32,559 bases of DNA, taken from positions 1 through 32,559 of the forward strand of contig CAMFCQ010000001.1 in the NCBI GenBank assembly GCA_945948915.1, read 5' to 3'. Positions 12,300-13,607 of this stretch are shown one piece after another; positions within the stretch are counted from its first letter, which is position 1, and every line of letters begins with the position of its first letter. The notes under the pieces are model-generated. The model ran no database searches. It saw only the letters and a list, made by a program, of their open reading frames with translations, and was not told where the DNA came from. The translations under genes and the position numbers were made by a program. This DNA is from an uncultured Clostridia bacterium. GTDB lineage: Bacteria; Bacillota; Clostridia; Christensenellales; Aristaeellaceae.

Positions 12300-12338
12300 G
12301 CAGCTTTCACTTCCCTTCGCCTTTCTGCGGATATCCTC

Positions 12339-12367
12339 AGTGTAGCCCATCAGGACGCAAAATGCAA
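12339..12367 (-). promoter_or_regulatory. Promoter of the AraC-family regulator gene
   Basis: TTGCAT (12367-12362) and TACACT (12344-12339) are separated by 17 nt on the minus strand. They lie about 40 nt upstream of the chosen ATG and about 33 nt from the left end of the MITE-like element. Confidence 0.65.
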
Positions 12368-12399
12368 GGCGGCAAGCCGAATTCTCCCGCACCGCGTCA

Positions 12400-12594
12400 T
12401 ACTATTCTCAAATAGAAACGAGCTATAAGCGCGAAGCGAAGAAGGGGTCTGGGGACTGGTCCCCAGGCTAGGGGTTTGGGGGATGAAATCCCCCAACGTC
12501 TCCATATCGCGAAGCGATCAAAGAAAAGCAGTCAGGGAGCGAAGCGTTACCTGACGGCCGGTTATTGCATGGCCGATTTTATTTGAGAGTAGTA
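12400..12594. mobile_element. 195-bp MITE-like element with terminal inverted repeats
   Basis: The noncoding gap between the AraC-family gene and the hydrolase gene holds a bounded element. The ends TACTATTCTCAAATA (12400-12414) and TATTTGAGAGTAGTA (12580-12594) are inverted repeats matching at 14 of 15 positions. Each is flanked outside by TCA (12397-12399 and 12595-12597), a possible target duplication. Inside are hairpins at 12449-12466, 12476-12496 (9-bp stem, GAA loop), 12506-12518 (GAA loop), 12531-12555 and 12555-12575. GCGAAGCG-type motifs occur three times (about 12431, 12509 and 12540). No protein-coding potential was seen. Mobility is inferred from structure only. Confidence 0.6.
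12427..12499 (+). repeat. Structured 73-nt repeat, copy 1
   Basis: This core lies inside the MITE-like element. It starts AAGCGCGAAGCGAAGAAGGGG and continues with two GC-rich hairpins (12449-12466 and 12476-12496), ending AACGT. A second copy lies in inverted orientation at 13535-13607. Both share the leader and the two-hairpin layout but differ in loop sequences and in some paired stem positions. Confidence 0.75.
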
Positions 12595-12609
12595 TCAGAA
12601 GTCAGCAAA

Positions 12610-12631
12610 GGCCCCGGAGTCTTCCGGGGCC
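12610..12631 (-). terminator. Terminator-like hairpin after the hydrolase gene
   Basis: A 9-bp GC-rich stem (GGCCCCGGA / TCCGGGGCC) with a 4-nt loop lies 8 nt after the hydrolase stop on the minus strand. The following TTTGCTGACTTCT tract is only moderately T-rich, so termination may be partial. Confidence 0.6.
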
Positions 12632-12639
12632 AGAATAAC

Positions 12640-13512
12640 TTATAGGTTCTTCAGGAACCGCGCAGCCAGCCGCGGCCATTCAGCGCATTCCGGCCGCTGC
12701 AACGACGCATCCCACGCGGCGCAGGTCTGCGTATTGCACAGGCTCAGCCCGTGGCGGCCCTCCGGGTAGATGTGCACCTCCGTGCGTACGCCCGCGTCCG
12801 CCAGCGCCAGCGCCATGCGCAGGCTGTTCTTCACCGGCACGGCGTCATCGGAAAACGTATGCCACAGGAACGTCGGCGGGTAATCGCCGCTCACCCAGTT
12901 CAGCACGCTGTAGCGCTGGTGCGCCTTCACATCCTCCGTGCCGGAGAGATGCACAAACGAGCCGCGATGCGCGTCCTCATCCGCGCAGATGACCGGATAG
13001 CACAGCACGGCGGCGTTGGGCCGCACGTCCTCGGGCGCAAGCCCCAGCTCCTGCCACAGCTCGGCACGCTGCCACAATCCGCTCAGGCTCGCCGCCAGAT
13101 GGCCGCCGGCCGAGAAGCCCATAACCGCGATCCTGTTCGGATCGGTATGCCACTGCTCTGCATGGCTGCGCACATAGGCGACAGCCGCCGCCGCGTCGTG
13201 CTGGGGCAGCGGGAAGGTGTTTTCCGGCGCCTTGTCGTACCAGGCAGACGCATCCTGCCCGCGAATCTCGTCCTCCGGCTGCGCGCCCACGCGGTACCAC
13301 AGGACAAACACATTGAAGCCTTCCATCAAAAAGCGCAGCGCCACCGGCTCGGACTCGCGCTCGCTGCAGAACGCGTAGCCGCCGCCAGGACAGATGACGA
13401 TGGCCGGCCGCCTGATCTCGGGATCGATCTCCCGGGAAACGCGCGGAACGTACACATCCATGCTCACCTGCGTGCCGCGTGAGGACGGCACAAGAACCCG
13501 TTCGTGAATCAT
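12640..13512 (-). CDS. Alpha/beta hydrolase, carbohydrate (acetyl-xylan) esterase-like
   Basis: This 290-residue hydrolase has no signal peptide and is probably cytoplasmic. The oxyanion-type CPGGGY is at 41-46, the nucleophile elbow GFSAGG at 132-137 with Ser134, the acid SDDAVP at 221-226 (Asp223) and the histidine GRHGLS at 252-257 (His254), so a full catalytic triad is visible. The layout fits small BD-FAE or acetyl-xylan-esterase-like enzymes that deacylate imported oligosaccharides. The exact substrate cannot be read from sequence. The ATG at 13512 follows AGGAGGT at 5 nt; the longer frame to 13557 is not supported. No convincing promoter lies directly upstream, so it may be read from the ABC exporter transcript. 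It is flanked by inverted copies of the structured repeat. Confidence 0.82.
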   Translation of the reverse strand: MIHERVLVPSSRGTQVSMDVYVPRVSREIDPEIRRPAIVICPGGGYAFCSERESEPVALRFLMEGFNVFVLWYRVGAQPEDEIRGQDASAWYDKAPENTFPLPQHDAAAAVAYVRSHAEQWHTDPNRIAVMGFSAGGHLAASLSGLWQRAELWQELGLAPEDVRPNAAVLCYPVICADEDAHRGSFVHLSGTEDVKAHQRYSVLNWVSGDYPPTFLWHTFSDDAVPVKNSLRMALALADAGVRTEVHIYPEGRHGLSLCNTQTCAAWDASLQRPECAEWPRLAARFLKNL

Positions 13513-13534
13513 ACTGACCTCCTGATTCTGGGGT

Positions 13535-13607
13535 ACGTTGGGGCTGCAAGCCCCCAACCCCGCTTGGGGATTTCATCCCCAAACCCCTTCTTCGCTTCGC
13601 GCATAAG
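13535..13607 (-). repeat. Structured 73-nt repeat, copy 2 (inverted)
   Basis: On the minus strand this begins CTTATGCGCGAAGCGAAGAA and carries two hairpins: TTGGGGAT-GAA-ATCCCCAA (13582-13564) and a GGGGCT/AGCCCC-type stem (about 13558-13537). It ends AACGT. It lies in the leader of the hydrolase gene, 13 nt upstream of its AGGAGG. The 15-bp terminal repeats of the copy-1 element are not present around it. Confidence 0.75.

Follow-up and report, generated by a model that had tools for sequence, protein, structure and literature searches.

The element at positions 12400–12594 of the window, by which we mean the whole stretch of 32,559 nucleotides that was analysed, is a MITE which has multiplied recently in the genome of its host, a bacterium that looks like an uncultured gut inhabitant. 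Judging from its ends, its target sites and the insertion sequences of relatives, this MITE is probably non-autonomous and mobilised in trans by a transposase of the IS630 family (Tc1/mariner-like, DDE), with TACT...AGTA ends, insertion at TNA and a 3-bp target duplication. Inside it lies a modular array of hairpins that belongs to the genus and is carried by these ends as cargo. Measured against the open-access literature, what seems to be new is the TNA target in combination with an IS630 transposase, together with a structured interior which is, in its own right, a modular repeat of this genus.

Structure and coding capacity of the 195-bp element

Re-checking of the sequence returned exactly the coordinates 12400–12594 for the 195-bp element, which lies on the plus strand and represents a subfamily that we call A. 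Its terminal inverted repeats, TACTATTCTCAAATA at 12400–12414 (plus strand) and TACTACTCTCAAATA at 12580–12594 (read on the minus strand), match at 14 of 15 positions, and both the sequence and the comparison of end pairs identified the trinucleotide TCA, of the class TNA, at 12397–12399 and again at 12595–12597 as the left and right copies of a target duplication. Within the element, the motif GCGAAGCG occurs three times (12431–12438, 12509–12516 and 12539–12546). Its first copy, on the plus strand, forms the 5' edge of the interior hairpin array or core (12431–12555, plus strand; 152.7 bits with the covariance model R1), the similarity of copies without ends starting at this motif or shortly before it. 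The array comprises, all on the plus strand, hairpin 1 with 10 pairs (12447–12468), hairpin 2 with an inner stem at 12476–12496 and four outer pairs (12471–12503), hairpin 3 around the second motif (12506–12518) and hairpin 4 around the third (12531–12555), and it is followed by a weak hairpin 5 and a T-rich tail (12556–12575, plus strand) which are terminator-like by pattern only. The original prediction had described 15-bp inverted repeats with one mismatch, TCA on both sides, five hairpins, three such motifs and no coding frame, and all of these were recovered, the fifth hairpin being weaker. As to coding capacity, five ORFs of at least 20 amino acids touch the element and only two, of 36 and 23 amino acids, lie wholly inside it; being short, with inverted ends and no transposase gene, the element has the properties of a MITE.

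The predicted RNA fold of positions 12390–12604 reached −91.2 kcal/mol as compared to a mean of −60.57 kcal/mol (SD 4.38) in 200 shuffled sequences (z = −6.99), none of which folded as well. When positions 12300–12700 were searched against Rfam, no family attained its gathering score, the highest bit score being that of Clostridiales-2 (19 versus 58.6), an RNA for which we found no paper in the open-access literature. The 195-bp element had no match in plasmids and phages, and the end pattern was found in 24 stretches of viral contigs, with one exact match each.

Copy number, target duplication and empty sites

The host assembly (2.9 Mb in 158 contigs, 88.7% complete) was searched for further copies, 40 of 196 first-look candidates being scored. 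Instead of a single copy, it contained at least 27 full-length copies of 97–100% identity (47 matches listed), and the copies stop sharply at the inverted repeats. Identical 3-mers, always of the form TNA, flanked 26 of the 27, the exception being L026 (TTA/TGA), so that the earlier proposal of a MITE with a target duplication was upheld. When all end pairs were counted, diverged relatives included and viral contigs left out, the flanking 3-mers were identical in 44 of 65 pairs and in 30 of the 33 pairs from the host genome. Every one of the 44 was TNA (TCA 18, TAA 11, TTA 9 and TGA 6). Among the other 21 pairs, 18 came from other genomes and 11 had TNA on both sides with a differing N. Since N is the same on both sides of the matching pairs, the unit duplicated is the 3-bp TNA rather than the TA found at either end of the element.

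The proposed comparison with empty sites pointed in the same direction. For the host copy L023, an uninterrupted site was found in the relative G011. Over the 30 bases to the right of the junction, in ungapped comparison, 23 matched if one TNA was kept, 10 under a TA model and seven if nothing was removed; the site itself reads TTG in G011 versus TTA in the host genome. The empty site for this copy fits a single TNA better than TA. At another locus, L016, the element was absent from G011 in a poor alignment, and at the window's own site the right flank alone was comparable with G011, in which no element was seen.

The number of insertions in the host genome is probably above the count of full copies, since such an element end is found about 110 bases or less from the terminus of 16 of its contigs (C3, C13, C16, C23, C45, C46, C55, C66, C67, C69, C78, C101, C105, C112, C122 and C135); repeats with such ends thus break assemblies. 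Two further MITEs of the host genome have such ends and a TNA duplication, namely subfamily B, of 192 bp, with a homologous interior (L136, L139), and MITE C, of 159 bp, with a different interior (L140:1079–1237, L141:1075–1233). Several MITEs with common ends would fit one transposase serving several passengers. In other genera of the family, L366, L367, L368 and L374 have TACT ends and an interior carrying a different, CATTCTGAGCGAAGCGAAGAATC-like repeat, also with GCGAAGCG.

An IS630-family transposase as the probable partner

Within the family, 10 of 200 genomes, the host included, carried the exact end pattern, and these belonged to five genera. One of the loci found by this pattern, L363 from another genus, encodes in its interior an interrupted IS630 transposase. 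A search for PF13358 (DDE_3) in 29 genomes of the host's own genus gave matches in nine, in eight of them above the cut-off. The best preserved insertion sequence, L394 in the congener G026, measures 1109 bp and has TACTAAACTCAAAT and ATTTGAGAATAGTA as its ends, with TAA on both sides. It contains two overlapping ORFs (965–1465 and 1378–2010), an arrangement that suggests a programmed frameshift, the second of which scored 145 bits with the NCBIfam IS630 model NF033545 (cut-off 100) and 71.7 bits with DDE_3 (cut-off 28.6). In the congener G011, L382 encodes a transposase that scored 140.1 bits with the same NCBIfam model and is 77% identical to that of L394 over 177 amino acids; its ends are similar and less perfect, the left one being off by two bases. 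Among these three insertion sequences with TACT-type ends, identical flanking 3-mers were observed in L394 only, those of L363 and L382 being, by eye, TGA/TAA and TAA/TTA. For the more distant IS630-like elements L377, L379 and L381, the inverted-repeat search gave TA and no 3-bp duplication.

Autonomous insertion sequences sharing the ends of the MITE were thus present in relatives and none was found in the host assembly, where DDE_3 had no match. Four congeners with such MITE ends (G018, G022, G025 and G028, all draft genomes) likewise gave no DDE_3 match, and multicopy insertion sequences are often missing from draft genomes. According to the original prediction, elements of this kind are usually moved by a transposase elsewhere in the genome. 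Of this, movement in trans is probable and the transposases with such ends reside in relatives, with none in the assembled host genome.

The profile scores of L394 and L382 place the probable partner in the IS630 family, the partnership being drawn from the ends. In the present system, information on the ends is thus joined by that on the target and on the transposase family. The element works like an IS630 MITE without the classical feature of that family, a TA duplication, in the place of which the end pairs counted above have TNA. These sequences are best read as pointing to a partner that would be a variant of the IS630 family whose target is 3 bp long and which appears to cut with a 3-bp instead of a 2-bp stagger. 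Its transposase would recognise the TACT...AGTA ends and insert the MITE at TNA with duplication of the three target bases, the ends taking along the hairpin array. We infer that the IS630 transposase of relatives could move the MITE in trans, and that the moving transposase may have been lost from the host genome or have remained unassembled.

Duplication of TNA is a property of IS5/IS1031-like elements. For IS630 elements a 3-bp TNA duplication is not known, and we found no paper on it in the open-access literature. Taken together with the lack of a DDE_3 match in the assembled host genome, this could mean that an insertion sequence of another family, e.g. an IS5/IS1031-like one, moved the ends, and that the IS630 ends reflect coincidence or capture. 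We regard such an origin as quite unlikely, since TACT-type ends enclose an IS630 copy in three separate cases. Our profile searches covered PF01609, PF01797 and PF13358, and PF01609 (DDE_Tnp_1) matched at three places in the host genome, all of them insertion sequences with other ends, so that an IS5-type transposase was rejected as the partner of the MITE.

An insertion sequence that encodes a DDE_Tnp_1 transposase and has the ends GAGTGTGTTTCTAAA is present twice in the host genome (G000), at L090 on contig C62 and at L091 on contig C143. In L090, the right end of this insertion sequence is absent where a MITE starts, and the flanks of that MITE differ (TTA/TAA); we read the junction as a rearrangement or an assembly chimera. 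A further MITE-like repeat, starting with TACTAATTCGCAGTTAAAATG, was seen in L382 (2466–2625, by eye), L091 and L065. The copy in L382 is flanked by TTA at either end and lies within the upstream portion of the G011 IS630 element.

Base pairing in the hairpin array

At E ≤0.01, a covariance model of the array built from 19 copies matched 159 times in 92 sources, the majority of them selected for containing the motif. In the 150 best-aligned copies, which are related to each other and whose alignment was fitted to the model, changes on both sides were found in 34 of the 35 base pairs (10/10 in hairpin 1, 11/12 in hairpin 2, 5/5 in hairpin 3 and 8/8 in hairpin 4). Cells changed on both sides numbered 872 as compared to 212 in shuffles, and 93.1% of the cells were paired (96.1% in hairpin 1), compared to 48.5–50.9% when partners were slid by one column; a first MAFFT alignment (A1), in which hairpin 1 was misaligned, is excluded from the pair counts. 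With double-sided changes in nearly every pair, base pairing in the array is maintained, which may have occurred at the RNA or the DNA level alike. The original prediction had called for a fold and a test of covariation on the view that the RNA or single-stranded DNA form matters; the covariation bears out that pairing counts, and it does not tell the RNA from the DNA level.

Stems with the same head differ from each other in individual pairs, as in GTCTGGGGATGAAATCCCCAGGC and GTTTGGGGATGAAATCCCCAAGC, or in TTGGGCGGCAGCCCAA, CTGGGCGGCAGCCCAG and CCGGGCGGCAGCCCGG, and conservation extends to stretches beyond the stems. One head, GATGAAATC, is used at both positions, with 52 occurrences in hairpin 1 and 10 in hairpin 2, which suggests an exchange of pieces. 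Such exchange would be expected if the compensating changes resulted from palindrome correction, whether copies exchanged sequence by gene conversion or by template switching, the structure being a by-product of a multicopy palindrome. We consider this somewhat unlikely in view of the pair-by-pair changes under a constant head and of the conservation outside the stems, both of which are nevertheless compatible with correction too. By analogy with REP/BIME, RUP and NEMIS, the array might instead act in transcripts as an intergenic RNA hairpin (a 3'-end or stability element), a tentative proposal to which we give not quite an even chance. The interior being a mobile repeat that has undergone compensatory change on a massive scale, one can ask of it whether the cargo is selected for transcript structure or is a palindrome kept by DNA repair.

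Distribution of the array and copies without ends

With stricter filters, the array, with or without ends, was detected in 18 of 28 congeners and in two of 31 genomes from other genera of the family, and in none of 40 genomes from other families of the order. The matches per genome ranged from one to at least 35, the latter in six genomes. Named records with the motif, among the matches listed, were Clostridia or Clostridiales metagenome-assembled genomes, several from rectum or caecum, and included Candidatus Ventricola gallistercoris; no relevant paper on a MITE in Ventricola was found in the open-access literature.

Many copies of the array occur apart from the ends. Of 249 distinct motif starts, 195 had no recognisable end upstream, a number that includes chance matches in genes and the inner motifs of hairpin 3. 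Among the matches listed, some end-less copies have empty sites in relatives (e.g. L311 versus L012), and a small extra hairpin around CTTAAAA tends, by eye, to precede them. The window itself contains a second core copy at 13529–13600 on the minus strand (50 bits, E = 2.2e-11), with hairpins 1 and 2 only and without terminal repeats, which has the stop codon of an ABC exporter gene on one side and, on the other, the AGGAGG upstream of the ATG of an esterase. The G011 genome matched this locus over query bases 2–551 of 551, at 88%. Dense structure as such had been called unusual for a MITE, an opinion that found no support, since a review (PMC2229807) describes transcripts of the bacterial repeat families that it covers as highly base-paired; what is unusual is an interior that is modular and also occurs by itself across the genus.

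End-less copies with empty sites and conserved hairpins could also point to an array that spreads in the manner of REP sequences, with a tyrosine (Y1/RAYT) transposase that works on the hairpins in single-stranded form, the terminal repeats being secondary. Y1 genes are indeed present in the array-rich genomes G025 and G027, and Y1 matches were obtained in G005, G007 and other array-bearing genomes as well. This mode of spread is nonetheless very unlikely, for Y1_Tnp (PF01797) had no match in eight array-rich genomes, that of the host among them (G000, G010, G011, G017, G019, G022, G026 and G028), and good PF01797 matches occurred in G002, G004 and G021, in which no array was detected.

Gene context of the insertions

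ORFs were called crudely, and 14 of 40 sites that fell inside an ORF were dropped. In 13 of the 26 insertions called intergenic, the flanking ORFs were convergent, and in a second count the same held for 14 of 30 arrays with ends versus 175 of 561 neighbouring ORF pairs. In addition, positions 12300–12700 contain one terminator-like pattern, with 0.5 expected from shuffles. These observations would suit a repeat that is an ordinary family of transcription terminators at gene ends. Against it, and making it unlikely, stand the crude ORF calls and the dropped sites behind these counts, the end-less arrays, which follow an ORF on the same strand in 40 cases and on the opposite strand in 35 (51 inside long ORFs dropped), and the second copy in the window, which lies directly upstream of a ribosome-binding site. 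No clear preference of the array for orientation or gene context emerged from these ORF calls, which are unreliable in GC-rich DNA.

Because TAA and TGA, as well as their reverse complements, fall within TNA, we also tested whether stop codons are targeted. After the same sites inside ORFs had been dropped, three of 26 sites lay at a stop codon, with 4.6 expected. A looser count, of stops ending an open run of at least 60 codons, gave 17 of 40 versus 18.6% of all TAA and TGA, the background here being drawn from genic and intergenic DNA alike. Targeting of stop codons by the element is not supported.

A nested module of about 93 nucleotides

Several copies of the array contain, in the apical loop of hairpin 1 or 2 and in either orientation, a second structured module of about 93 nucleotides (CCGRAGCC...TTYCCCGG), whose exact loop position rests on individual sequences. 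It was seen at L137, L138, L163, L196, L226, L152 and L044. Its limits could be set in 38 of 195 seed matches, and the array motif lay at most 90 nucleotides away in 29 of these 38; at least six ungapped pairs flanked the module in 16 of the 38, versus 260 of 1968 random positions. It is conceivable, if doubtful, that the whole forms a multi-layer, self-nesting system in which the array propagates itself, the module targets its apical loops and the IS630 3-bp variant captures everything as cargo. If true, this would amount to a class of mobile elements in bacteria that target the hairpin loop of another repeat.

Comparison with known systems

In the open-access literature we found no paper matching palindromic repeats or MITEs of this kind; PMC5896051, in the part considered, treats another element. 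The transposases of L394-type insertion sequences belong to the same family (NCBIfam NF033545, Pfam DDE_3) as those of ISY100 and other IS630/Tc1-mariner elements. The studied IS630 elements insert at and duplicate TA according to the part of PMC2170065 used here, whereas the 195-bp element duplicates TNA.

RUP of Streptococcus pneumoniae, as presented in sections of PMC2229807 and PMC3049150, is a tightly folded element of 107 bp with about 110 copies per genome, whose ends resemble those of IS630-Spn1 and whose mobilisation in trans was likewise inferred from ends and target. The 195-bp element is similar to the RUP/IS630-Spn1 pair in being a folded MITE with IS630-like ends. It differs in that RUP inserts at TA and not with duplication of a 3-bp TNA, and in that RUP is AT-rich (27.5% GC) compared to about 58% GC in the interior of the array. 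Those sections describe no end-less interior form of RUP, whereas the array has end-less copies.

REP/BIME sequences with RAYT (PMC2817692) are high-copy intergenic hairpins in mosaic arrangements, as is the case here; unlike them, many copies of the array lie inside a MITE with inverted repeats, and the eight array-rich genomes named above gave no Y1 match. Finally, the Correia/NEMIS elements of Neisseria also possess inverted repeats and a target duplication, and are transcribed as stem-loops for which RNase III cleavage has been proposed (PMC2229807, in the portion concerned). Their ends and interior are different from those of the 195-bp element, in which the array combines four covarying hairpins in series with nested modules.
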